A stretch of DNA of 64,000 bases from the IMG/VR virus record IMGVR_UViG_3300023174_005338, positions 1 through 64,000 of that record; one strand, written 5' to 3'. Shown here one piece after another: positions 30,420-60,810 of the stretch. Within the stretch, counting starts at the first letter, position 1. Each line of letters opens with the position of its first letter. This DNA comes from a virus. The notes under the pieces were generated by a model. That model was not told the DNA's origin. It saw only the letters and a list, made by a program, of their open reading frames with translations, and made no database searches. A program made the translations under genes and the position numbers.

Positions 30420-30803
30420 ATGGCCTATTCTGAAAAAGTAATCGATCATTATGAAAACCCACGCAATGTGGGCAAGATGGACGTGGGCGATGTCAATGTA
30501 GGTACCGGCATGGTTGGTGCGCCGGCCTGCGGTGATGTAATGAAACTACAAATTCGAGTAGAAGATGGAATCATACAAGATGCGAAATTTAAGACTTACG
30601 GTTGCGGCTCTGCTATTGCGTCGAGTTCGTTGCTCACGGAATGGGTCAAGGGTAAAACTCTGGAGCAAGCAGGAGCGATTAAGAACTCACAGATTGCAGA
30701 AGAGCTCGCATTACCGCCGGTCAAGATCCATTGCTCGATCCTGGCTGAGGACGCGATCAAAGCTGCTATCGAAGATTACAAGAGAAAACATCTAGATGAT
30801 TGA
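30420..30803 (+). CDS. iscU: IscU-type iron-sulfur cluster scaffold
   Basis: 127 residues, full length. It carries the three cluster Cys C37, C62 and C105, the assembly Asp D39, H104, and the L-P-P-V-K (98-102) loop recognised by the HscA chaperone. It would assemble [2Fe-2S] clusters using sulfur from a host IscS. It overlaps the iscA-like gene by 8 nt. Clients in this phage could include the radical SAM enzyme and the CDGSH-like protein; that is inference. Confidence 0.95.
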   Translation: MAYSEKVIDHYENPRNVGKMDVGDVNVGTGMVGAPACGDVMKLQIRVEDGIIQDAKFKTYGCGSAIASSSLLTEWVKGKTLEQAGAIKNSQIAEELALPPVKIHCSILAEDAIKAAIEDYKRKHLDD

Positions 30804-31116
30804 AGTAACTGATGCAGCCAGTAAGAAAATCCAACAGAATCTTGCTCGTAGAGGCAACGGTATTGGCATACGCATAGGAACTAGAACCACGGGTTGTTCG
30901 GGTCTGGCCTATGTGTTAGAATATGTAGACCAACCAGCTGACACTGATCAGGTATTTGAGGCTGACAAATTTAAAATTGTAGTAGATCCCAAGAGTTTGC
31001 CTATTGTGGACGGCATCACGGTGGATTATGTGCGTCAAGGACTCAACGAAGGCTTTGAATTTATTAACCAAAAAGAACGAGACCGCTGTGGGTGCGGGGA
31101 AAGTTTCCGAGTCTAA
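30796..31116 (+). CDS. iscA: IscA/ErpA-type iron-sulfur carrier
   Basis: 106 residues with the A-type carrier Cys triad C34, C98 and C100 (C-G-C-G-E-S-F), and the T-T-G-C-S-G-L-A-Y motif. It would pass clusters from IscU to apo-proteins. Encoded directly after iscU with an 8-nt overlap. Whether it is closer to IscA or ErpA cannot be settled by eye. Confidence 0.93.
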   Translation: MIEVTDAASKKIQQNLARRGNGIGIRIGTRTTGCSGLAYVLEYVDQPADTDQVFEADKFKIVVDPKSLPIVDGITVDYVRQGLNEGFEFINQKERDRCGCGESFRV

Positions 31117-48519: not shown

Positions 48520-50118
48520 ATGTGGTTTGGCATACTCACTCTCGCAACCGCACTGATCATATCAGTCAGTGCCGCTTATTACAGCATACTTGGTCTCACA
48601 GCCATATTTGCCGCGGCCTTCTGGCCCATAGTGATCTTGGGTAGCAGCCTGGAAGTGGGCAAGATAGTAAGCACCCTGTGGTTGCACAAGTATTGGCACA
48701 GGGCAGAAATGCAGTACAAGATATATCTCAGTGCGGCCGTGGCCATACTCATGGTCTTGACCAGCATGGGTGTGTTTGGCTTCTTGAGCAAGGCACACTT
48801 GGATCAAGTCGTGCCGTCGGGCGACATACAGGCCCAGGTGCAGATCTATGATGACAAGATCAAGACACAGCGTGACAACATAGAAGCCGCCAGAAAGGCT
48901 CTGCGCCAGATGGACGAAGCCGTGGATCAGACCATGAGTCGTAGCAGTAGCGAACAAGGAGCAGACAAAGCTGCCAACCTGCGCCGCAGCCAGGCCCGTG
49001 AACGTGGCAATCTACAGAACGACATTTCACGAGCACAGAGTGAGATCACCAAACTACAAGAACAACGAGCACCCATAGCCAGCCAGGCTCGCCAGATTGA
49101 AGCCGAAGTGGGTCCTATCAAATACATTGCCGCACTCATATATGGTGACAATCCTGATGCCAATCTGTTAGAAAAAGCAGTTCGCTGGATGATCATACTG
49201 ATTGTCATAGTGTTTGATCCACTAGCCCTGACCCTGTTGCTGGCCGCTACCAAGACCTTTGAATGGGAACGTGAAAATAAACTCAAGGACACGCATGAGG
49301 ATCCAGATCCAGATGTAGGATCTTGGTTTGATCGAGCCCGCGAGCGTGCCAGATTCTGGGACCAACAACAAAAAGAAAAACCAACTCCATGGCCATTTCC
49401 CCGACAGTTTGAAGGCATACGATCAGGTCAAGGCCAATGGATGCAGACCGGTCCTGAACTTGATGTCCCCGACGAGCAAGAACCTGTCAAATCTCAACCT
49501 ACTGTAAAACAATCTGTGTTGGCCGGTCTAGACAGCATGTGGGCCCGTGCCAAAAAACTGGCACGGCGAGATTCCGAAGCCGAACATGCACCATTAGACA
49601 CATCTGCGAACAAGCCATTGCCAACCCCAGTTGCAGAAGAGGACAACGACACATCAGAAAAGTTTGCTGAACGTGCATGGAAATCTGAAAATCCCAACGA
49701 CACTCTCAAACGCCAACGAGATCTATTGGACGCTGGCCTGATCGCAGAACTACCTTGGAATGAAGACCGATTTCAGACTCAGGTTTTGGGTCAACAAAGA
49801 ATTCAAGCCGACAATGTGCCCACTGGTGCCACCGGCGAAGTGCGAGGGTTTGGTACCAGTTTTCCGGCTGATGCCAAAAAAGGTGACATGTTTCTAAGAG
49901 TGGATCGCTTGCCCAGTGGACTTTACAAGTACAACGGCACCATGTGGATCGAGGTAGACAAATCCTTGAGCGACAGCCATGCCTGGGACGATGCCTACAT
50001 TGACCACCTCATAGCCAAGATAGGATCTGGCGAATATGATCCTGACTTGCTGAGTGATGCCGAACGTGATCGTATTGAGGCCAAACTAAAAACTGATCCT
50101 TCGTCGGGCTTGGCATGA
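48520..50118 (+). CDS. Large membrane-anchored coiled-coil protein
   Basis: 532 residues. Transmembrane segments lie near 5-40, 67-88 and 225-245. A long coiled coil (about 105-200) sits between the second and third, and a cytoplasmic Pro/Glu-rich linker leads to a C-terminal domain with K-K-G-D-M-F-L-R-V-D-R-L-P-S-G-L-Y-K-Y near 450. Similar proteins occur in T4-like cyanophages without a known role. May scaffold assembly at the membrane. ATG 48520 is preferred; a TTG lies 6 nt upstream. Confidence 0.7.
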   Translation: MWFGILTLATALIISVSAAYYSILGLTAIFAAAFWPIVILGSSLEVGKIVSTLWLHKYWHRAEMQYKIYLSAAVAILMVLTSMGVFGFLSKAHLDQVVPSGDIQAQVQIYDDKIKTQRDNIEAARKALRQMDEAVDQTMSRSSSEQGADKAANLRRSQARERGNLQNDISRAQSEITKLQEQRAPIASQARQIEAEVGPIKYIAALIYGDNPDANLLEKAVRWMIILIVIVFDPLALTLLLAATKTFEWERENKLKDTHEDPDPDVGSWFDRARERARFWDQQQKEKPTPWPFPRQFEGIRSGQGQWMQTGPELDVPDEQEPVKSQPTVKQSVLAGLDSMWARAKKLARRDSEAEHAPLDTSANKPLPTPVAEEDNDTSEKFAERAWKSENPNDTLKRQRDLLDAGLIAELPWNEDRFQTQVLGQQRIQADNVPTGATGEVRGFGTSFPADAKKGDMFLRVDRLPSGLYKYNGTMWIEVDKSLSDSHAWDDAYIDHLIAKIGSGEYDPDLLSDAERDRIEAKLKTDPSSGLA

Positions 50119-51314
50119 CAAACAAAATTGAACACTGTAGTTTTTGCGACAAACACAAGGATCTGGTTGGCAAATTGATTGTGAGTCAGGCAGTGGCCAT
50201 ATGCAACGAATGTGTGGCCTTGTGTGACAATTTGTTGAAAGACGTCAAACCCTCTACAAAATCCAAATTTAAACAGATTGGTGTGTTGGATCCCTTGGAC
50301 ATATTGATGTACCTTGATGAATACGTGATTGGACAAGATCAAGCCAAACGAGTGCTGGCAGTTGCCATTGCCAATCACTATAAGCGTATCAGCCGACCTG
50401 GCACAGATCTACAAAAGGTCAACATAATGATGCTTGGTCCCACCGGTACCGGAAAAACTTTGTTGGCTCGCACAGTGGCTCGATATTTGCAAGTGCCATT
50501 CGTGATTGCAGATGCAACTTGTTTGACCGAAGCAGGTTATGTAGGCGATGATGTAGAAAGCATGATAGCCAGATTATACACTGCTGCCAATGGAGATGTA
50601 GAAGCCTGTCAGCGTGGCATTGTGTTCCTGGATGAAATAGACAAAATTGCTAGAAAAGGCGAAAGTGCCACAGTCAGCCGAGATGTCAGTGGCGAGGGCG
50701 TGCAACAGGCTTTGCTCAAACTGATTGAAGGCACCCGTTGTAGGATTCCAGCACAAGGCTCTAGAAAAAATTCTGGCACAGAAATGATTGAAATAGACAC
50801 TGCCAATATTCTGTTTATAGCCAGTGGTGCATTTGTGGGTCTGGAGAGAATCATACAGAATCGAGTACAAGGCACTGCCATGGGATTTGGTGCACAGCTT
50901 GACCGCGCCATTGAATCAACCATGGAGAAAATTATACCCGACGATCTGGTCAGATATGGCATGATTCCAGAATTCGTGGGCAGATTTGGTAGTTGTGTGA
51001 ATTTACATGATCTTGACAAGTCTCAGTTGATCAATATATTGACACAGGTCCGGGGAAACTTTGTCAAACAGTATCAATGGCTGTTTGAAGAAGACGGAGT
51101 TGAACTCAACTTTGATGCAGAAAGTCTGGATATCATTGCCGAACGCACACTGAAAAGCCGAACTGGTGCACGTGGCCTGCATAGCGAACTTGAACGAGTG
51201 TTGTTGCCGCACATGTTTGATTTGCCACGCTATCGACGTCAAAATATACTGGCCGTCACGATCAATAAAACCCAGGTAAATACACCCATGACACTGGCAC
51301 AGGAAAATTCGTGA
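50115..51314 (+). CDS. clpX: ClpX-like unfoldase
   Basis: 399 residues, full length. The zinc domain has C8/C11 and C30/C33. The AAA+ core has Walker A G-P-T-G-T-G-K-T (108-115), pore loop G-Y-V-G (141-144), Walker B F-L-D-E-I-D and the M-G-F loop (256-258) at the ClpP-docking IGF position. It could work with host ClpP or as a chaperone. No clpP is in the window. Stop/start overlaps couple it to the membrane gene and the bS21 gene. Confidence 0.95.
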
Positions 51315-51532
51315 GAGAGTACAAGAGATCGGTAGTTGTCAAGGACGACAACGTGGAACGTGCTCTGCGCAAGTTCAAGAAAAAGATACAGGAATCCGGA
51401 CTCTTGGATGAACTGCGAGGTCGCGAAACCTACGAAAAACCCACCACTGAACGCAAACGCAAAAAAGGTGCGGCCCGTGCCCGCTGGCGCAAACGGCTGA
51501 GAGATCAGCAGTTGCCCAAAAAACTCTACTGA
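51311..51532 (+). CDS. rpsU: Ribosomal protein bS21 homologue
   Basis: 73 residues. It matches bS21: [12 protein letters not shown] near 16-27, then [15 protein letters not shown] and a basic end with L-Y. bS21 sits near the anti-Shine-Dalgarno region of the 30S subunit and affects initiation. GTG start overlapping the clpX stop. A phage copy could bias host ribosomes towards phage mRNAs. Confidence 0.92.
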
Positions 51533-51533
51533 T

Positions 51534-51758
51534 GTGTTTGTAGAATTTGCATTGCCGCAGGACGAAAGCTACGGGTTCGTTTTAAATCTCGTTCGTCTTG
51601 ACATTGTAGATTGGGCAACTCGCTACAACATTCCTTACACACAAAAAACAATAAAATATACGCATAGACTGGCCTTTGACCAAGACCGTTTCTATACTGT
51701 GTTTGCCACGACTTGGAATAGCAAATTTGATTATCGACTCATTGACAGACGGTGGTAA
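51534..51758 (+). CDS. Conserved small protein of T4-like phages
   Basis: 74 residues from a GTG start, with M-F-V-E-F-A-L-P, then T-I-K-Y-T-H-R-L-A-F-D near 42 and a final L-I-D-R-R-W. From memory a conserved cyanophage protein, function unknown. Confidence 0.72.
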   Translation: MFVEFALPQDESYGFVLNLVRLDIVDWATRYNIPYTQKTIKYTHRLAFDQDRFYTVFATTWNSKFDYRLIDRRW

Positions 51759-51772
51759 ATGTGTTATAAATA
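51742..51772 (+). promoter_or_regulatory. Overlapping sigma70-like and late promoters of hsp20
   Basis: TTGACA (51742-51747), 17 nt, TATAAA (51765-51770), which is also the start of a perfect TATAAATA (51765-51772). Both polymerase forms could use the same start. Confidence 0.75.
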
Positions 51773-51778
51773 TATTAT

Positions 51779-51802
51779 GTAGATGCCGATGGTCGGGTCT
51801 AC
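51779..51802 (+). other. Hairpin at the 5' end of the hsp20 transcript
   Basis: GTAGA (51779-51783) pairs with TCTAC (51798-51802), and inside it CCGA pairs with TCGG around TGG. The predicted transcript start is at about 51778, so the mRNA would begin with this stem. Confidence 0.6.
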
Positions 51803-51811
51803 ATAATGTCA

Positions 51812-51828
51812 CTTGCTTATTAAAGGAG
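51812..51828 (+). promoter_or_regulatory. Candidate ROSE-like RNA thermometer over the hsp20 ribosome-binding site
   Basis: CTTGCTT (51812-51818) can pair with the Shine-Dalgarno AAAGGAG (51822-51828), allowing a G-G mismatch and one bulged C around a 4-nt loop. The TTGCT facing the ribosome-binding site is the hallmark of ROSE elements, which control ibpA-type small heat-shock genes. Confidence 0.45.
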
Positions 51829-51834
51829 AAAACA

Positions 51835-52275
51835 ATGACAAAAATCACAGCTCTGGACCTCAGTCCATTTTATCGCAACTCAATTGGTGTAGATCGTTTG
51901 TTTGGTCGTATCATGGACCAGATTGATCATGCCAGCACCAACAACTATCCACCCTACAACATACTCAAGACCGGCGAAGATACCTTTGAAATACAGGTAG
52001 CAGTAGCAGGCTTTGGCCAAGGTGAGATTGATGTTGCTGTCAAAGACGGCGAACTTGTTATCACAGGTGAAAAACAACCCGAAGCCATGTTGGTAGGTAC
52101 TGAGTACCTACATCAAGGTATCAGTGCTCGTCGTTTTATACGCACATTTACCATGGCCGATTACGTAGAAGTAGTCTCAGCCGAGTGCAAAGACGGTATC
52201 CTTACAGTGTGTTTAGAACGCCGTGTGCCCGAGGCCATGAAGCCAAAGACCATTGCGATCACCTACGCAAACTAG
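51835..52275 (+). CDS. Hsp20/IbpA-type small heat-shock protein
   Basis: 146 residues. It has an alpha-crystallin domain (about 40-130) with I-Q-V-A-V-A-G-F near 57, K-D-G-E-L-V-I-T-G-E-K near 75 and D-G-I-L-T-V-C-L near 120. The N-terminus has F-Y-R-N-S-I-G-V-D-R-L-F as in IbpA. It binds unfolding proteins for refolding or Clp delivery. AAAGGAG precedes ATG 51835. Followed by a ClpS-like gene and preceded by clpX and rpsU. Confidence 0.93.
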   Translation: MTKITALDLSPFYRNSIGVDRLFGRIMDQIDHASTNNYPPYNILKTGEDTFEIQVAVAGFGQGEIDVAVKDGELVITGEKQPEAMLVGTEYLHQGISARRFIRTFTMADYVEVVSAECKDGILTVCLERRVPEAMKPKTIAITYAN

Positions 52276-52281
52276 TATAAT
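52253..52281 (+). promoter_or_regulatory. Sigma70-like promoter upstream of clpS
   Basis: TTGCGA (52253-52258), 17-nt spacer, TATAAT (52276-52281). Confidence 0.55.
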
Positions 52282-52285
52282 GTAG

Positions 52286-52316
52286 TAAATACAGTGGAGG
52301 GCATGGGCTCTCCACT
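52286..52316 (+). promoter_or_regulatory. Late-type TAAATA followed by a hairpin upstream of clpS
   Basis: TAAATA at 52286-52291. Just downstream AGTGGAG (52293-52299) pairs with CTCCACT (52310-52316), so the late transcript would begin within a stem-loop, as at hsp20. Confidence 0.5.
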
Positions 52317-52333
52317 ACTAACAAGGATCCACG

Positions 52334-52642
52334 ATGTCGCAAGCTGGCACAGTCACAAAAACAAAAATCAATCACGACATGGCAGAACCACCCATGTTCA
52401 AGGTCATTTATCTCAACGACAATGCCACACCCATGGACTTTGTGATAGAAACACTGATAGACAGTTTCAACTACAATCAACAGACAGCAGTGCAGATCAC
52501 ACATGATATACATGAAGCAGGAAGTGCGGTAGTAGCTGTGCTTCCTTATGAAATAGCTGAACAAAAAGGCATAGAAGTCACAGTGCAAGCTCGCAGCAAC
52601 AACTATCCTTTACAGGTCAAACTGGAACCTGAAACAGTCTAA
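52334..52642 (+). CDS. clpS: ClpS-like adaptor
   Basis: 102 residues. The ClpS fold is recognisable from F-K-V-I-Y-L-N-D-N-A-T-P-M-D-F-V near 22-37, A-V-Q-I-T-H-D-I-H-E-A-G-S-A-V-V near 52-67, and Y-P-L-Q-V-K-L-E near the end. ClpS brings N-degron substrates to ClpAP. Here it may redirect the host ClpA protease. AAGGA lies 6-10 nt upstream. The stop abuts the stop of the convergent phosphoesterase gene with no gap. Confidence 0.88.
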   Translation: MSQAGTVTKTKINHDMAEPPMFKVIYLNDNATPMDFVIETLIDSFNYNQQTAVQITHDIHEAGSAVVAVLPYEIAEQKGIEVTVQARSNNYPLQVKLEPETV

Positions 52643-53859: not shown

Positions 53860-54138
53860 GTGGGTGAATTTTTCAAGCTAGTCGCAGAACTAGGATTTCC
53901 AATAGCGGCAGCAATCGCAGCCGGATACTTTGTATTTCTCACATTGAAGTTTATTCTTGCTGGTGTAACCAGCAGTGTAAAAGGCATGGCCGGCATCATC
54001 GGCGCCTTGGACAAGCGTGTGGCCACCATGAATCATGATGTTATGCGCATTGACACAAAAGTTTCGCATGCGCTGGGTCTACAACCTGACTTGGATCGCA
54101 TAGCTCGAGCTGAACAAAGTGACGCCAGGAGAGACTAA
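53860..54138 (+). CDS. Small membrane protein, paralogue of the 54761 product
   Basis: 92 residues from a GTG start. An N-terminal V-A-E-L-G-F-P-I-A-A-A-I-A-A-G-Y hydrophobic helix extends to about 36, followed by a helix D-x-R-V-x-x-M-x-x-D-V-M-R-I-D-x-K-V. The 54761 protein matches it from G-F-P-I-V-A-A to the D-L-I-R-L-N-Q-K-V helix. Holin-like size and topology, but unproven. Confidence 0.68.
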   Translation: MGEFFKLVAELGFPIAAAIAAGYFVFLTLKFILAGVTSSVKGMAGIIGALDKRVATMNHDVMRIDTKVSHALGLQPDLDRIARAEQSDARRD

Positions 54139-54760: not shown

Positions 54761-55039
54761 ATGGATATTGTAACCTTAATCAACAAATACGGATTTCCCA
54801 TAGTGGCCGCTGGCGGCATGGGCTACTTGATTTTCTACGTGTGGAAATGGGCTACCACTGAAATCAAACCTGTGCTCAGTGAAGCCAACACCACCTTGAT
54901 TGCCCTGATAGATCGTATCCGCATGCTGGACAACGACCTGATCCGTCTCAATCAAAAGGTCAATGTGACCCTGCACCTGCGTGGCCGTAGCATCGAGCAT
55001 GAACGCCTGGCTCAAGACGAAATCATCAACAAGTCGTAA
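54761..55039 (+). CDS. Small membrane protein, paralogue of the 53860 product
   Basis: 92 residues with the hydrophobic helix Y-G-F-P-I-V-A-A-G-G-M-G-Y-L-I-F near 10-28 and the conserved D-N-D-L-I-R-L-N-Q-K-V near 57-67. T4-like cyanophages encode close relatives of unknown role. The start is set at ATG 54761, one base after the upstream stop. Confidence 0.68.
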   Translation: MDIVTLINKYGFPIVAAGGMGYLIFYVWKWATTEIKPVLSEANTTLIALIDRIRMLDNDLIRLNQKVNVTLHLRGRSIEHERLAQDEIINKS

Positions 55040-55090: not shown

Positions 55091-55531
55091 ATGAAAAAAA
55101 TAATAATAAGTGTTCTGGCCAGCGTCGCTACATCCACGGTCAGCGCACAACTGGTACATCAGTTTAACTCGCCATCCTTTTCAGGATCGGGCTACAGCAG
55201 CCATGTCTTGACCATCGAGCAACTGGAAGCCACACGCCGTAAAGCCATAGCTGATGCACAAAAAGCCGCACAGGAAAAGGCCGAACGCGATGCCAAAAAT
55301 ACCAACTTGGCCAAGTTCTTGGTCAACGTGGAAAGTCGTATCTACGCACAACTTTCAAAACAGTTGGCAGATGCCATGTTTGCCGAAGGCGGTGCCAACT
55401 CTGGCAGTTTTGATTTCCAAGGCACCAACATCAGTTATGTGAAAACTGGCACAGATGTGACCTTGACCATCATTGAGGCCAACGGAAACAGGACCGAAAT
55501 CACTGTGCCCTTGTCGAGTTTTAGTTTCTGA
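55091..55531 (+). CDS. csgF: CsgF-like curli assembly factor
   Basis: 146 residues. The signal peptide ends near residue 19 (S-T-V-S-A). The mature N-terminus Q-L-V-H-Q-F-N-S-P-S-F-S-G-S-G matches the CsgF start (F-x-F-x-N-P-x-F-G-G) that inserts in the CsgG pore. A helical linker and a C-terminal beta domain with T-L-T-I-I-E-A-N-G-N-R-T-E-I-T-V follow. It would anchor nucleated curli at the surface. Its stop overlaps the csgG ATG. Confidence 0.82.
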   Translation: MKKIIISVLASVATSTVSAQLVHQFNSPSFSGSGYSSHVLTIEQLEATRRKAIADAQKAAQEKAERDAKNTNLAKFLVNVESRIYAQLSKQLADAMFAEGGANSGSFDFQGTNISYVKTGTDVTLTIIEANGNRTEITVPLSSFSF

Positions 55532-56592
55532 TGCGTAGACTACTCCTAATCCTTCTTGTTGCTGTGTTGCCTGGCTGTGCTTACATACACATGGAAGTGG
55601 CACAGGAAGAGCCTGTGAAAGTCACGCCCAAACAAAATCTCATGGATCAGTTGCCGGTGTTGGATGGACCGCCCATGACCGTGGCTGTGTACGGATTCAG
55701 AGATCTCACTGGACAGAACAAACCCAATGACAGACTGGCCTTGTTCTCAAAGGCTGTGACACAAGGTGCTGAAGTGTTCTTGATCAAGAGCCTGCAAGAT
55801 TCCAAGAACTGGTTCCGTGTGGTAGAACGTGTGGGCCTGGACAACTTGATCAAAGAACGACAGCTGATCCGCAATCAGCGTGAAGTGTATGAAGGCAAGG
55901 AAGCCAAACCACTCAAGCCTTTGACTGTGGCTGGTATCTTGTTGGAAGGTGGTATTATTGGCTATGATTCAAACATCAGGTCAGGCGGTAATGGTGCCAG
56001 ATTCCTGGGCATAGGTGGTAGCCAGCAGTATCGTGTGGACGAAGTTACTGTAAGTCTTAGATTGATCTCAATCAGTTCAGGTGAGGTCCTGATGACCAAT
56101 GCTGTGACCAAGACCATATACTCAACAGCACACAATGTGGGCGTGTTGAGATTTGTGGATGCTGGAACCAAAGCCCTGGAGTTGGAGAATGGCCAAGCTC
56201 TGAACGAGCCCACTACCTATGCTGTGCGTGTGGCCATTGAACAGGCAGTGTATGAACTGATCACAGAAGGCCAGAAAAAAGGCCTATGGAGTTACAAGCG
56301 TGCTGAGGAGAAACAAAATGATGTCAAGCCTGCTGCAACAAATGCGCCGCCTGCAACAACAAGCGGCACAGAGACAAAAACAGAAACCGCAAAAACCGCC
56401 GCAGTCACAGTAATGCGGCTGCGCGAAGCATCATACATTTATCGCGATCCAGATGAACGCAGTCAACGCACCTGGATGCTGAAGGAAAACACAGATTTGA
56501 CTGTGACACCAGGCCAGAACGGCTGGGTTGCAGTGCAAGACTCAGCCGGTCGTCGGGGCTGGGTCAAAAGCGACAGGTTAATTCAGCCATGA
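55531..56592 (+). CDS. csgG: CsgG-like outer-membrane curli secretion pore with SH3 extension
   Basis: 353 residues. The lipobox is L-P-G-C (C16). The CsgG body (about 40-255) has V-A-V-Y-G-F-R-D-L-T-G-Q, V-V-E-R-V-G-L-D-N-L-I-K-E-R, G-I-I-G-Y-D-S-N and G-x-R-x-x-G-I-G blocks. CsgG is normally about 280 residues; here an Ala/Thr linker and a bacterial SH3-type domain (about 290-350, ending G-W-V-K-S-D-R-L) are added, which may bind peptidoglycan. It would form the nonameric secretion pore. Confidence 0.92.
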   Translation: MRRLLLILLVAVLPGCAYIHMEVAQEEPVKVTPKQNLMDQLPVLDGPPMTVAVYGFRDLTGQNKPNDRLALFSKAVTQGAEVFLIKSLQDSKNWFRVVERVGLDNLIKERQLIRNQREVYEGKEAKPLKPLTVAGILLEGGIIGYDSNIRSGGNGARFLGIGGSQQYRVDEVTVSLRLISISSGEVLMTNAVTKTIYSTAHNVGVLRFVDAGTKALELENGQALNEPTTYAVRVAIEQAVYELITEGQKKGLWSYKRAEEKQNDVKPAATNAPPATTSGTETKTETAKTAAVTVMRLREASYIYRDPDERSQRTWMLKENTDLTVTPGQNGWVAVQDSAGRRGWVKSDRLIQP

Positions 56593-56599
56593 ATGCCTG

Positions 56600-56633
56600 T
56601 AAATATGTAAATGCGGCAATCGCATATTATAAT
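56600..56633 (+). promoter_or_regulatory. Possible promoter elements before the curlin-like gene
   Basis: TAAATA at 56600-56605 and a consensus TATAAT at 56628-56633 with only a weak -35. A GGTC/GACC hairpin (56639-56651) follows. The ribosome-binding site of the curlin gene is weak, and a better AAGGAG at 56652 does not lead to a sensible frame. Confidence 0.4.
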
Positions 56634-56698
56634 AATAAGGTCGCAAAGACCAAGGAGCTGGTTGGAGAATAATAAAAACAAATCCAACCTGAAACAAG

Positions 56699-57325
56699 AT
56701 GGAAAAGAGAACGACAGGCATTGGCGGATTGTCGAGAAAATTATCCGCAATTCTGATGACAGCTGCGATGTGGTCATTGGGTGCTCAGGCTAACGAAGTT
56801 TATATTGAACAGGTAGGTAGCGGTTCGACCATAAACATCACGCAACAGGGCACAGACAATCGTATCGGTGACAGCACCACTCCGGCCTACATAGGATCGG
56901 GATCAAACACAGTGACCATAGATCAGATTGGTTCGACCAACACTCTGGACATGGTGGTCAACGGTGCCGGCACAGATGTGATAGTTACAACCACCGGTGA
57001 CAACAACACTCAAACTATCAACTGTGGAACCACAACATCAGCTGGCTGTAGCGGCAGTTATATCAAACAACAAGTCACTGGAGATTCGAACACTGTGACT
57101 CAGAATCTGGGGTCGGGTGCCAATCATACCAGTGAAATCAATGTGACCGGTGATAGTAACACAGTGACTCACACCAGCACAGCCACAGGTACCACTTCGG
57201 CCAATATTACTGTGACGGGCAATACCAACACAGTGGGCGTTACTCAATCAGGAATGTTGAACAAGAGTGTCACAGTTACCAGCACTGGCAATAGCAATAA
57301 CATTAGCATTACTCAGTCTGACTAG
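56699..57325 (+). CDS. Curlin-repeat (CsgA/CsgB-like) amyloid subunit
   Basis: 208 residues. A signal peptide-like start (hydrophobic 16-31, ending A-Q-A) precedes repeated curlin-type strands: S-G-S-N-T-V-T-I-D-Q-I-G-S-T-N-T, G-D-S-N-T-V-T-Q-N-L-G-S-G, G-D-S-N-T-V-T-H, G-N-T-N-T-V-G-V-T-Q-S-G, G-N-S-N-N-I-S-I-T-Q-S. The spaced N and Q in N-x-V-x-I-x-Q are the amyloid ladder signature. A single C-x9-C pair lies in the middle. Probably the secreted fibre subunit for the adjacent CsgG pore. Confidence 0.82.
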   Translation: MEKRTTGIGGLSRKLSAILMTAAMWSLGAQANEVYIEQVGSGSTINITQQGTDNRIGDSTTPAYIGSGSNTVTIDQIGSTNTLDMVVNGAGTDVIVTTTGDNNTQTINCGTTTSAGCSGSYIKQQVTGDSNTVTQNLGSGANHTSEINVTGDSNTVTHTSTATGTTSANITVTGNTNTVGVTQSGMLNKSVTVTSTGNSNNISITQSD

Positions 57326-58346
57326 TTGGGCCTCAGTGGGTCGCGTGGTTGAACAGACCGGCCCCACTGAAATAGTGCGCAACAAAAAGAGTCTGAGCAG
57401 TAGTGTGAATACTCCTGTGGAGATGCTGGACACCATTGTCACAGCTCGAGCCAAGGCCAAGCTGGAGTTTGTGGACAAGACCACGGTCAACATCACTGAA
57501 CAAAGCAAGATACTCATAGACGATTTCGTGTATGATCCCAAAGCCGGATCAGGCAAGCTGGCCATGAAGATGGTACAAGGCACTGCCAGATATGCGTCAG
57601 GTCAGATAGCCAAGAACTCACCACAGAATGTAAACATAACCACACCCACTGCTGCTGTGGCCGTGCGTGGCACAGACTTTTCCATGACCGTGGATGAACT
57701 GGGTCGTAGCCTTATCATGTTGTTGCCCAGTTGCGATGCTAAAAGTTGTGTGACTGGATCAATCAGTGTCAGCAACGATGCTGGTCTAGTCATTTTAGAT
57801 GTGGCCTATCAAGTCACGGTGGTGGCCAGCTTGTCAGCACCGCCCACAGCACCCACGGTGATACAGATTGATGCCAACAACATCAACAACATGTTGATCG
57901 TGGCACCCCCACCAGCAGTGCGTGAAGCCCTACAACATATACAACAAACAGCCTTGGACATTAATTTTTTAAACAAGGATCTGCTGAAGTTTGATGAACT
58001 GGATGTGAACTATCTTGAAAAGTTCAAAAGATTGGATGTGAACTTTTTGGATTTGGATTTCTTGGTCAATTTGTTGGATCTCAGCAACAAGCAGTTGAGT
58101 GCCAGCCTAGATGCCATGAGTCGTGAAGCCAGCCTGTTACCGGCCTATGATCCTAACTCTGGACTAAGGTATTTTTTCAACGAAGATGAAAGCAAGGTCA
58201 CTGTGAGACTAAACACAGGGCACATGGCCGAAGTCACTGTGGGCGTAGAACATGATGCTGTGGTGACTATAAATCAAGCAGGATGGGCAGTTACACAACA
58301 GATCAACCGTGGCGGAACCAGTATAATTAATATTATACAACGATAA
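57267..58346 (+). CDS. FecR-domain exported protein with LD-N-F-L repeats
   Basis: 359 residues from GTG 57267. The first 59 nt overlap the curlin gene in another frame and encode its signal peptide (A-L-A-I-A-I-T-L-A-L-L-S-L). The FecR domain (about 25-150) has T-T-V-N-I-T-E-Q-S-K-I and T-P-T-A-A-V-A-V-R-G-T-D-F. Residues about 230-275 hold Leu/Asp/Asn repeats of the form L-D-x-N-F/Y-L. FecR proteins often precede CHASE2 cyclases in bacteria, as here, and may pass a periplasmic signal. Confidence 0.85.
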   Translation: MSQLPALAIAITLALLSLTSWASVGRVVEQTGPTEIVRNKKSLSSSVNTPVEMLDTIVTARAKAKLEFVDKTTVNITEQSKILIDDFVYDPKAGSGKLAMKMVQGTARYASGQIAKNSPQNVNITTPTAAVAVRGTDFSMTVDELGRSLIMLLPSCDAKSCVTGSISVSNDAGLVILDVAYQVTVVASLSAPPTAPTVIQIDANNINNMLIVAPPPAVREALQHIQQTALDINFLNKDLLKFDELDVNYLEKFKRLDVNFLDLDFLVNLLDLSNKQLSASLDAMSREASLLPAYDPNSGLRYFFNEDESKVTVRLNTGHMAEVTVGVEHDAVVTINQAGWAVTQQINRGGTSIINIIQR

Positions 58347-58356
58347 GGAGATAATA

Positions 58357-58521
58357 ATGGAAGGAACCACAATCAAGACTCTGGCTGAATATATTGCCAA
58401 ATTGAATCGTGACAATGCTGAATTCTTGAAAGAATACGAAAACGATCAATTTGATACCAATGGCGTTGAACAAGATCACATAGAAACATTCTGGCCACCC
58501 AATGAGCACCCCCGCACCTAA
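58357..58521 (+). CDS. Small acidic protein (54 aa)
   Basis: The ATG is preceded by AAGGAG (58345-58350). It is a helical, acidic peptide ending F-W-P-P-N-E-H-P-R-T. Unknown function. Lies between the FecR-domain gene and the cyclase gene. Confidence 0.66.
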   Translation: MEGTTIKTLAEYIAKLNRDNAEFLKEYENDQFDTNGVEQDHIETFWPPNEHPRT

Positions 58522-58666
58522 TTCTCCAGCACCTTGGTGTTGTTGGCCTGGTTGCACTCGACCTGCACAGATCTACGAAAATAGAAATATCAAAGGAGTA
58601 ACATCATATCTTAAAACCTGTGGCAAACACTGGTTACCAGGTGTTCACTCCAGAGCTAATCCATAA
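58502..58666 (+). CDS. Possible small zinc-finger protein (54 aa)
   Basis: Overlaps the preceding gene by 20 nt. W-C-C-W-P-G-C-T-R-P-A near 12-22 and L-K-T-C-G-K-H-W near 37-44 give a C-x3-C...C-x2-H layout, like short HNH/zinc finger proteins in phages. No clear ribosome-binding site; tentative. Confidence 0.5.
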   Translation: MSTPAPNSPAPWCCWPGCTRPAQIYENRNIKGVTSYLKTCGKHWLPGVHSRANP

Positions 58667-58698
58667 TGTGCGTGTTGATCTTATCCAAGCTCAACCAG

Positions 58699-58704
58699 TA
58701 AATA
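58699..58704 (+). promoter_or_regulatory. Late-type TAAATA upstream of a short non-coding unit
   Basis: AGTAAATA with no gene before the terminator at 58754; see the adjacent RNA candidate. Confidence 0.5.
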
Positions 58705-58708
58705 CTGT

Positions 58709-58776
58709 GTCGATATAAAAACTATAAGGAATCGACCCAGCTACATATTCAAAAGCCCCCGCGAGGGGCTTTTTTT
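58709..58776 (+). ncRNA. Candidate small late RNA
   Basis: A transcript started by the late element at 58699 would begin near 58710 and end at the terminator, about 67 nt. It would open with a GTCGAT/ATCGAC stem (58709-58714 with 58731-58736) whose 16-nt loop exposes TAAGGA, a Shine-Dalgarno-like sequence. No start codon follows. It may be a regulatory RNA or only a leader remnant. Confidence 0.42.
58754..58776 (+). terminator. Strong rho-independent terminator before the cyclase gene
   Basis: AGCCCC / GGGGCT stem with flanking A/T extension, CGCGA loop and a T-run. Confidence 0.92.
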
Positions 58777-58784
58777 ATCTAAGT

Positions 58785-58790
58785 TAAATA
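58785..58790 (+). promoter_or_regulatory. Late-type promoter element TTAAATA of the cyclase gene
   Basis: Four nt separate the motif from ATG 58795, so the mRNA would be leaderless. No Shine-Dalgarno sequence is present. Confidence 0.62.
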
Positions 58791-58794
58791 TAAC

Positions 58795-60810
58795 ATGCTG
58801 AAAAAAATCCTAACTAGCCCCTGGACTGCTCTAATAACATTGGCAGTTATAGTAGCAATACGCATAGCGGATCCTGCATTTGTAGAAAGTGTTCGCTTGC
58901 GTTATTTTGATACCTTGGTGACCAGCAAGCCCGCAGAAGTCACAGGTGTTCATGTTGTAAATATTGATGAAAAGGCTTTAGAACGATATGGTCAGTTTCC
59001 CTTCGCCAGAAATGTATATGCTGGCATCATCCAAGATCTTTATCGCCGCAACGCTGGTCTTGTTGTTTTTAATATTCTTACTCCTGATCGCGATCGCATG
59101 GGTCGCGATGCGGCGTATGTGGCGGCGTTGCAAAAACATGCTACGGTTCTTCCAAGCATAGGCAGCACAGCGACTCGTAACCAACCTAGGAATCCCGGAA
59201 GTGCGGTGATCGGTCCCCTGGATACTAACAATTTTGTGACCTATCCTGGAATCATTGCCAACATACCTGCTGTGGAACGTGCGGCCATAGGCGTAGGTAT
59301 CACTAACACCTTGCCCGAGATAGATGGTGTGGTACGTAGAATGCCCATGGTAGTGGCTGTTGATGGTAAGTTATATCCCAGTCTGGCCATGGAAGTCATG
59401 CGTGTGGCCGCAGGTGACTCGACTTTCCAAGTCAAAGTAAATGAACAGGGCGTGGAAAAAATGCGTATTCCACAGTTTGGCCCAGTGAGTACAGATAGCC
59501 TCAGCAGGATCTGGATTGACTGGAGCCTGACTCCAGAACGTCACGGCTTAACCGACTTGCCCCAGGACTTTGATGGCGAGATAGTTATTGTGGGAGTCAG
59601 TGCCGCAGGCCTGTCCAATCCTGTGGCCACCAGCCTGGGTGAGATGTTGCCACAAGACTTGCAAGCCGCTGTGATATCAACAGTGATAGCCAACAAGATC
59701 AGACCAGCTATTACTCGTCCTGACTGGGCAGATGGTGCAGAGATAATCACCTTGGTCGTGCTTGCGGTGACATTGATATTTTTAGGGAGATGGACCTATG
59801 TTGGTATTGCTGGCAGTGTTGTTGTCATTGGTATTTGTGTTTGGGTTCCTGGTGCTTTGTACTCGAGCCATGCTTGGCTCACTGACGTCACTTTGGTTGT
59901 TGGGGGTCTTGTTGCTGTGCTTCTGCATGCTTATGGAGTACGGTTTGTATCAGAGTATCTTGCTAAACAACAAATAAAGAAACAGTTTGGCACCTACTTG
60001 AGTCCGGCCATGGTCGAGAAACTTCAGAAGAATCCAGAACTGCTGAAGTTGGGCGGTGAAAGCAGAGAGTTGAGTATCATGTTCACTGATGTGCGTGGCT
60101 TTACTACCATCAGCGAACACTACGGTGCCGACGTTCAAGGACTGACCAAGATCATGAACAGATATATGACAGCCATGACCGCCAAAATCATAGAGAACGA
60201 AGGTACCTTGGACAAGTACATAGGTGATGCACAGATGGCATTTTGGAATGCACCCTTGGATGACGCTGATCATGCTGTCAATGCTGTGCGTACTGCTTTA
60301 CAAATGATGGAGAGTTTGGATGAGTTCAATCGTGAAATCAGTGCAGAAGGCATTCCGCCTTTTGGCATGGGCCTTGGCATCAATACTGGTACCGTGGTCG
60401 TTGGTAATATGGGCAGCGATCAGCGTTTTGATTACACCTGCCTTGGTGACAGCGTTAATCTGGCGAGCCGACTCGAAGGCCAGTCAAAACCTTATGGCGT
60501 TCGCATCATACTGGGACCGCGTACTAGTGAGCTTGTCAGAGATTCCTACCCAGTTGCGGAACTAGACTGCATAGCAGTAAAAGGCAAGACCGAAGGCGTC
60601 CGCATATATACACTGGCAGAAGAAACACAGTTGCACAAAGATTTTATCACCTTGTATTACGCTGGCGAATGGAAACAAGCACAGGCCTTGATTCCAGGAT
60701 GCATCAAAGCCTGCCCAGAACTGGAGGCATATTATGGGGCCATGGATGAACGACTTGCGGCAGGTAAGCCAGATGACTGGATGGGAACCTATAAGGCTAC
60801 ATCTAAATGA
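58795..60810 (+). CDS. CHASE2-domain adenylate cyclase (class III)
   Basis: 671 residues. An N-terminal membrane helix (9-25) and an extracytoplasmic CHASE2 sensor (about 30-315, with V-N-I-D-E-K-A-L) are followed by three membrane helices (about 320-395) and a class III cyclase domain. Metal ligands are D432 (F-T-D-V-R-G-F-T-T) and D478 (G-D-A-Q-M-A-F-W). K474 and T548 suit adenine recognition, and N555 and R559 are the transition-state pair. It looks fully active, making cAMP. Bacterial-looking gene paired with the FecR gene upstream. Confidence 0.93.
   Translation: MLKKILTSPWTALITLAVIVAIRIADPAFVESVRLRYFDTLVTSKPAEVTGVHVVNIDEKALERYGQFPFARNVYAGIIQDLYRRNAGLVVFNILTPDRDRMGRDAAYVAALQKHATVLPSIGSTATRNQPRNPGSAVIGPLDTNNFVTYPGIIANIPAVERAAIGVGITNTLPEIDGVVRRMPMVVAVDGKLYPSLAMEVMRVAAGDSTFQVKVNEQGVEKMRIPQFGPVSTDSLSRIWIDWSLTPERHGLTDLPQDFDGEIVIVGVSAAGLSNPVATSLGEMLPQDLQAAVISTVIANKIRPAITRPDWADGAEIITLVVLAVTLIFLGRWTYVGIAGSVVVIGICVWVPGALYSSHAWLTDVTLVVGGLVAVLLHAYGVRFVSEYLAKQQIKKQFGTYLSPAMVEKLQKNPELLKLGGESRELSIMFTDVRGFTTISEHYGADVQGLTKIMNRYMTAMTAKIIENEGTLDKYIGDAQMAFWNAPLDDADHAVNAVRTALQMMESLDEFNREISAEGIPPFGMGLGINTGTVVVGNMGSDQRFDYTCLGDSVNLASRLEGQSKPYGVRIILGPRTSELVRDSYPVAELDCIAVKGKTEGVRIYTLAEETQLHKDFITLYYAGEWKQAQALIPGCIKACPELEAYYGAMDERLAAGKPDDWMGTYKATSK

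Follow-up and report, generated by a model that had tools for sequence, protein, structure and literature searches.

A curli export module with a FecR-domain protein and a CHASE2 adenylate cyclase in a jumbo T4-like phage

The 337,119-base virus record IMGVR_UViG_3300023174_005338 carries, within its bases 1-64000 (hereafter the window, the whole stretch of DNA that was analysed), a phage-borne curli module. In this module, an island of five genes, encoding CsgF, CsgG, a curlin-repeat protein, a FecR-domain protein and a CHASE2 adenylate cyclase, is preceded by the genes of two small membrane proteins, TM-A and TM-B. The phage that carries it is T4-like and, at 337 kb or more, of jumbo size; the module genes are retained together in related viruses and are under purifying selection. 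We propose, with moderate confidence, that the phage curlin would be exported via CsgG-CsgF and would make the infected cell adhesive, and that a relay formed by the FecR-domain protein, TM-A, TM-B and CHASE2 would lead to cyclic AMP (cAMP) acting via host receptors.

The module and its carrier

The five island genes all lie on the + strand and span 5.7 kb, and their Pfam matches all exceed the curated cut-offs. The gene identities, direction and extent given in an initial annotation, which was made from the DNA letters alone, are thus confirmed, and all five proteins belong to the families then named. That annotation missed TM-A and TM-B, and also that the module was already known in phages. 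The features are as follows (E-values after the family names).

53860..54138, + strand: TM-A, 92 amino acids (aa), single membrane segment; phrog_18771; ends ...DARRD
54761..55039, + strand: TM-B, paralogue of TM-A, GFPIVAAGGMGYLI...LIALIDRIRMLDNDLIRL; phrog_18771
55091..55531, + strand: CsgF; PF10614, 3.4e-15; phrog_35372; signal peptide
55531..56592, + strand: CsgG, outer-membrane pore lipoprotein with a C-terminal SH3 domain; PF03783, 9.1e-55; SH3_4 at residues 303-350, 1.8e-7
56699..57325, + strand: curlin-repeat protein, presumed fibre subunit; PF07012, 3.3e-9, two stretches; signal peptide
57267..58346, + strand: exported FecR-domain protein; PF04773, 1.6e-12; GTG start; signal-peptide-like start
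58795..60810, + strand: CHASE2 sensor fused to a class III adenylate cyclase; PF05226, 1.5e-35; PF00211, 2.1e-21

The record, classed as linear, is possibly not complete. A T4-type gp23 capsid gene is found at 291.8 kb, on the same contig as the island, and the window itself contains a T4-like gene set, namely gp32 single-strand-binding protein, UvsX, a UvsW-type helicase, a gp41-type helicase and NrdA/NrdB, in agreement with the T4-like location that had been assumed. The arrangement ClpX-Hsp20-ClpS-...-CsgF-CsgG-curlin-FecR recurs in other contigs (L003, L016, L047, L049, L052), and the five island proteins have 81-92% identity to those of a separate contig, L002. Because gp23 lies on the same contig and the same arrangement recurs elsewhere, a chimeric join of phage and host DNA, which had been named as a possible refutation, is ruled out, and the island is phage-borne. 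The late-type promoter elements that were claimed to precede the island did not hold up: the motif TATAAATA occurs four times in the 64 kb against 1.5 expected, and 10 of 100 shuffles reach four. Its nearest copy, at 51765, precedes Hsp20/ClpS at a distance of 3.3 kb from CsgF, and there is none directly before the island.

Retention of the module in viral genomes

A scan with CsgG returned 87 viral relatives, of which 80 were kept. The gene order, which the initial annotation had suggested searching for in other phages, was found repeatedly: all five genes are present in 41 of 41 CsgG-anchored viral loci whose sequence continues for 9 kb or more beyond CsgG, although some of these contigs are near-duplicates and the 41 are not independent events. 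In these loci the cyclase gene may be directly adjacent, up to 7 kb away or on the opposite strand (4/41), with unrelated genes between; therefore, its retention is not explained by simple operon linkage. Pairwise dN/dS against L002 is 0.03-0.14, and the module genes are under purifying selection. The viral homologues of the module fall in PHROG families of their own.

The lowest dN/dS in the module (0.03) belongs to TM-A and TM-B. Among 50,697 phage records, TM-A was found in only six, all of which also have the FecR protein and the full-length cyclase. A scan of viral contigs anchored on TM-B, and thus independent of any Csg protein, gave 51 loci with at least 20 kb, in which a CHASE2 cyclase (50 loci), FecR (46) and CsgG (37) occur within 10 kb of TM-B. 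CsgG is located elsewhere on the contig in 13 of the 14 loci where it is missing from that interval, so that 50 of 51 have it on the contig. TM-A and TM-B are therefore dedicated partners of the curli module. They occupy the slot where Wittmers et al. (PMC9599517) place one or two 'histidine kinases' before CsgF. A kinase domain was matched by none of 35 members of the TM-A/TM-B family, with E-values up to 1 considered, and 92 residues are too short for such a domain. From position and size we infer that TM-A and TM-B correspond to the published histidine kinase genes, in which case the published label of the slot would be unsupported.

The module is accessory and patchily distributed: 13 contigs (40-182 kb) with a UvsX 83-99% identical to that of this phage are without CsgG, and, judging by coordinates, the equivalent position should fall within about five of them, the others being too short to show it. 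With regard to origin, about 19 of 75 bacterial relatives of the FecR protein have a CHASE2 cyclase gene no further than about 9 kb away, without csg genes. In Alphaproteobacteria, CsgF loci are uncommon (above the cut-off in 5 of 385 genomes), and neither FecR nor a CHASE2 cyclase stood beside CsgF in the five alphaproteobacterial loci examined. In the simplest reading, a curli export unit and a FecR-CHASE2 unit would have been joined in phages or in an unsampled bacterium. Five contigs binned in bacterial metagenome-assembled genomes of Flavobacteriaceae, Rhodobacteraceae, Pirellulales and Pelagibacter (L084, L085, L086, L087, L109) have the phage-type module; they probably come from phages, and phylogenies that include such bins could give a false picture of where in bacteria the module originated. 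A CsgG match (42.7%) in 'Salmonella phage S.Kent 1-2-1', a record of 1.5 kb without annotation, was not used.

Export components

The CsgG start overlaps the CsgF stop (TGATG), and CsgG, which bears an LPGC lipobox, can be aligned over its length with the solved E. coli CsgG 6lqh (1.4e-51). The long form of CsgG is found in 18 of 59 distinct viral CsgG proteins; its SH3 domain gave a Pfam match in all four that were tested, one of them below the family cut-off. Two Cys residues of the curlin-repeat protein are invariant in an alignment of 31 homologues. CsgG, CsgF and a curlin subunit with a signal peptide, which characterize curli (type VIII) secretion, are therefore all in place, and a CsgE gate and a separate CsgB nucleator are not.

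A lipobox or signal peptide for envelope export is present at the start of all four of CsgF, CsgG, the curlin-repeat protein and the FecR-domain protein. Because of these signals and the membrane segments, all parts of the module except the cyclase catalytic domain are predicted to reside in the envelope.

Signalling components

The gene of the FecR-domain protein overlaps the end of the curlin gene, and the PF04773 domain is present in 30 of 30 homologues. Searching its AlphaFold2 model (pLDDT 76.7) with Foldseek retrieved anti-sigma periplasmic domains, namely the PupR signalling domain 6ovk (7.6e-5) and 4m0h (1.8e-4), so that Pfam and Foldseek agree on the fold of a periplasmic FecR domain. 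A signal-peptide-like helix leads directly into this domain, and in both sequence and model the N-terminal cytoplasmic anti-sigma part and the membrane anchor of FecR regulators are lacking. Conserved features include a Cys pair (C153/C158), an Asp-rich LDxNxLDxDLL linker and a C-terminal beta domain with invariant Gln at 334 and 355. The invariant Gln residues and a VxIxQxG pattern prompted the idea that the C-terminus derives from curlin repeats, which was left unproven: the alignment with curlin by hhalign was not significant (probability about 2%), Pfam curlin matched 0 of 30 FecR homologues, and AlphaFold2 modelled the C-terminus alone poorly (pLDDT 68.8).

The cyclase consists of an N-terminal membrane segment, CHASE2, further membrane segments and a C-terminal cyclase domain. 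The window cyclase aligns with solved adenylate cyclases and has D432, K474, D478, T548, N555 and R559, which is the adenylate-type class III pattern of two metal-binding Asp, the adenine-specifying Lys and Thr/Asp, Asn and Arg. Its catalytic residues are thus intact, and adenylate cyclase activity is predicted. Among 46 viral CHASE2 cyclases there are two kinds of catalytic domain, distinguished at two active-site positions: 25 are T/N and 21 are D/S, the D/S type being without the usual Asn. Mean catalytic-domain identity to the window protein is 82% for T/N and 52% for D/S, whereas the CHASE2 part is about equally diverged in all 46 (mean 51-54%), which makes the T/N catalytic kind much better conserved than its own sensor. 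One CHASE2 sensor type thus carries two alternative catalytic domains, a pattern likely to have arisen from domain exchange by recombination.

Surface proteins inserted in related phages

In related phages, the interval between FecR and the cyclase holds genes for 12 distinct proteins, 660-1160 aa long, all of which begin with a signal-peptide-like segment and end in Phe.

L006:13128-15176, large secreted insertion protein
L007:13053-15404, large secreted insertion protein
L011:13038-16334, large secreted insertion protein
L015:13110-16604, large secreted insertion protein
L016:12899-14893, large secreted insertion protein
L017:12915-15476, large secreted insertion protein
Others of the same kind are found in further contigs.

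Six were tested: three have an autotransporter beta-domain (one of them also an F5/8 type C sugar-binding domain), one has F5/8 only and two gave no match. These proteins are candidates for phage-encoded outer-membrane adhesins. The autotransporter family occurs in 5 of 10 records searched and is absent from the present one. In the cultured phage HTVC008M, this slot encodes a protein annotated as hypothetical (L082:10638-11963), which has a PA14 domain followed by curlin repeats and may be a lectin-tipped fibre subunit. The presence of autotransporter, F5/8 and PA14-curlin proteins in the module favours cell-surface remodelling over a bare pore.

The same interval holds other genes in related phages. 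A secreted DNA/RNA non-specific endonuclease is encoded at L055:2686-3399 (PF01223, 2.6e-36), with similar genes in L062, L065 and L069, and metallophosphoesterases and a fatty-acid desaturase are found as well.

Neighbouring genes

ClpX-like, Hsp20-like and ClpS-like genes stand in tandem upstream of the module (window 50115-52642), in an order shared by several related contigs; Hsp20 and ClpS were so named by sequence reading. Downstream, on the - strand, a gene at 60960-61430 matches phrog_3600 (PagP, lipid A acylation, 6.9e-16); its product may be another envelope-modifying protein, and a homologue adjoins TM-B in L003. IscU-like and IscA-like iron-sulphur scaffold genes, named by sequence reading only, are located at 30420-31116, and in L023 an IscU-like gene lies between FecR and the cyclase. 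A search for PmoC, made with a methanotroph phage in mind, was silent, but so was its control. An Rfam search of the window for a riboswitch like that of Melnitz gave zero matches.

Comparison with known systems

The module is already known from three studies (PMC7029224, PMC9004378, PMC9599517), and it is present in the cultured phages HTVC008M and Melnitz. Zaragoza-Solas et al. 2020 (PMC7029224) reported CsgGF in pelagimyophages and put forward the idea of 'sibling capture', which agrees with an adhesive function. In HTVC008M and the pelagimyophages the order is likewise CsgF-CsgG-curlin-FecR-cyclase; HTVC008M differs in its 147-kb genome, the PA14 domain on its second curlin protein and a CsgG without an SH3 tail. 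Buchholz et al. 2022 (PMC9004378) discussed CsgGF of Melnitz as a possible lysis device and stated that amyloid subunits were missing. Melnitz-type OM43 phages share CsgF, CsgG, curlin, FecR, cyclase and TM-A/TM-B homologues with the present phage, with CsgG 50.8% identical over the pore domain. Melnitz has a genome of 141 kb, a CsgG without the SH3 tail and a second curlin-repeat gene between FecR and cyclase. In both HTVC008M and Melnitz, the two small genes directly before CsgF are TM-A/TM-B homologues.

Wittmers et al. 2022 (PMC9599517) described a complete phage type VIII secretion module with FecR and cyclase in podoviral and myoviral pelagiphages. Its order, CsgF, CsgG, curlin, FecR and then adenylate cyclase, is that found here, and CsgE is absent in both. 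In contrast to those pelagiphages, in which a second curlin gene is frequent, the present phage is a jumbo carrier (at least 337 kb) with a single curlin gene, an SH3-tailed CsgG and kinase-less genes in the 'histidine kinase' slot. In addition, a T4-like marine virus assigned to Bacteroidetes is reported to have three curli genes (PMC7198788).

Compared with E. coli curli (csgBAC/csgDEFG), CsgG aligns with the solved pore, and CsgF and the curlin repeats match the same Pfam families, but here CsgE is missing, there is one curlin gene, and FecR, the CHASE2 cyclase and TM-A/TM-B are added. Bacterial FecR-CHASE2 cyclase pairs resemble the phage pair but come without csg genes, whereas the latter is attached to curli export and TM-A/TM-B. 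Our literature search, which was not exhaustive, found no reports of jumbo-phage curli or of phage autotransporters near curli. As far as the searched literature goes, the jumbo T4-like carrier, the SH3-tailed CsgG with a single curlin gene, the kinase-less membrane-protein pair, the two cyclase types and the surface-protein insertions are new.

Proposed function and alternatives

Adhesion combined with cAMP signalling, as the initial annotation had suggested, is the best-fitting hypothesis, and a role in lysis is still a contender. During infection, the CsgG lipoprotein would form a pore in the outer membrane, which the SH3 tail may anchor to the cell wall. CsgF would be situated at the pore mouth, and the curlin protein would be exported as an amyloid-type fibre. 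The FecR-domain protein and CHASE2 would face the periplasm and the cyclase domain the cytoplasm, and the FecR-domain protein, with TM-A and TM-B, may pass information on the envelope or on fibre export to the CHASE2 cyclase. The cAMP produced would act through receptors of the host, the search for a phage-encoded one having been negative. The infected cell would become adhesive and its signalling would change, which would favour encounters with new hosts and/or keep competing phages out. The autotransporter-like and F5/8 insertions and the PA14-curlin protein of HTVC008M point to surface adhesion. The proposal is also supported by the joint retention of the five genes, the low dN/dS, the export signals on the four envelope proteins, the intact cyclase residues and the proximity of FecR and CHASE2 cyclase genes in bacteria that have no csg genes there.

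Several observations weigh against this proposal. CsgE (PF10627) is absent from the record and nine related ones, the E. coli control being positive, and no second curlin or CsgB-like nucleator was found besides the one curlin-repeat protein of the 337-kb record, although a diverged copy could escape the search; the absence of both CsgE and a CsgA/CsgB pair, first noticed in the window, thus extends to the whole record. The constriction residues of CsgG are partly kept (KPNDRLALF here versus KPYPASNF in E. coli). The search for a phage-encoded CRP or other cAMP (cyclic-nucleotide) receptor in the record was negative. Infected cells did not clump in the Melnitz study (PMC9004378). Finally, the holin family phrog_4898 is matched by 26 of 35 TM-A/TM-B members (best 1.5e-8), the window copy matching weakly (0.00069).

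These holin matches, the missing CsgE gate and the proposal published for Melnitz (PMC9004378) favour a lysis or lysis-timing device, in which an ungated CsgGF outer-membrane pore and holin-like TM-A/TM-B would permeabilise the envelope late, with the cyclase as a timer. We consider this rather unlikely: the curlin and FecR genes, needless for a bare pore, are kept in all 41 loci; unlike a general holin, TM-A is missing from phages without the curli module; and the surface-protein insertions have no lysis role. It has also been suggested that the CsgG pore admits large nutrients or cofactors, with FecR as an iron-linked regulator (PMC7029224, PMC9599517). Without the CsgE gate the pore may be open both ways (PMC9599517), and the FecR domain has a fold like that of iron-uptake signalling domains. 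This explanation is improbable, as the curlin gene and CsgF are always retained, and a FecI-FecR iron circuit is unlikely because the FecR protein has a signal peptide and no cytoplasmic anti-sigma part. An assembly artefact in which host genes became attached to phage sequence, or a recent capture without function, might be read from the patchy occurrence of the module (the 13 CsgG-less contigs are mostly fragments) and from the bacterial relatives of its parts, but is refuted by gp23 on the same contig, the recurrence of module and ClpX-Hsp20-ClpS flank in other contigs, the separate PHROG families, the dN/dS values and the presence of the module in cultured HTVC008M and Melnitz.

Implications

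Beyond the proposal of an adhesive, cAMP-signalling infected cell, we tentatively suggest a broader role, for which the chances are well below even. The module may be an envelope-to-cytoplasm circuit of the phage, in which TM-A/TM-B, FecR and CHASE2 detect the fibre after export, or the surface of the cell, and adjust cAMP via interchangeable catalytic domains. It may also be the core of a wider surface-remodelling island, with autotransporter-like adhesins bearing sugar-binding domains, a secreted nuclease and lipid-modifying enzymes, by which T4-like jumbo phages re-dress the infected cell.

Phage curli are a rare instance of a virus apparently equipping its host with an entire new surface organelle. 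Their purpose has been openly debated, with sibling capture, superinfection exclusion, uptake and lysis as the candidates. With the present record and its relatives, the range of the module grows from small pelagiphages to include jumbo T4-like phages, two dedicated membrane proteins are recognised as parts of it, and its sensor-cyclase proves to be retained even where the gene is displaced or inverted. Both the cAMP output and the adhesion that we propose thereby become directly testable.

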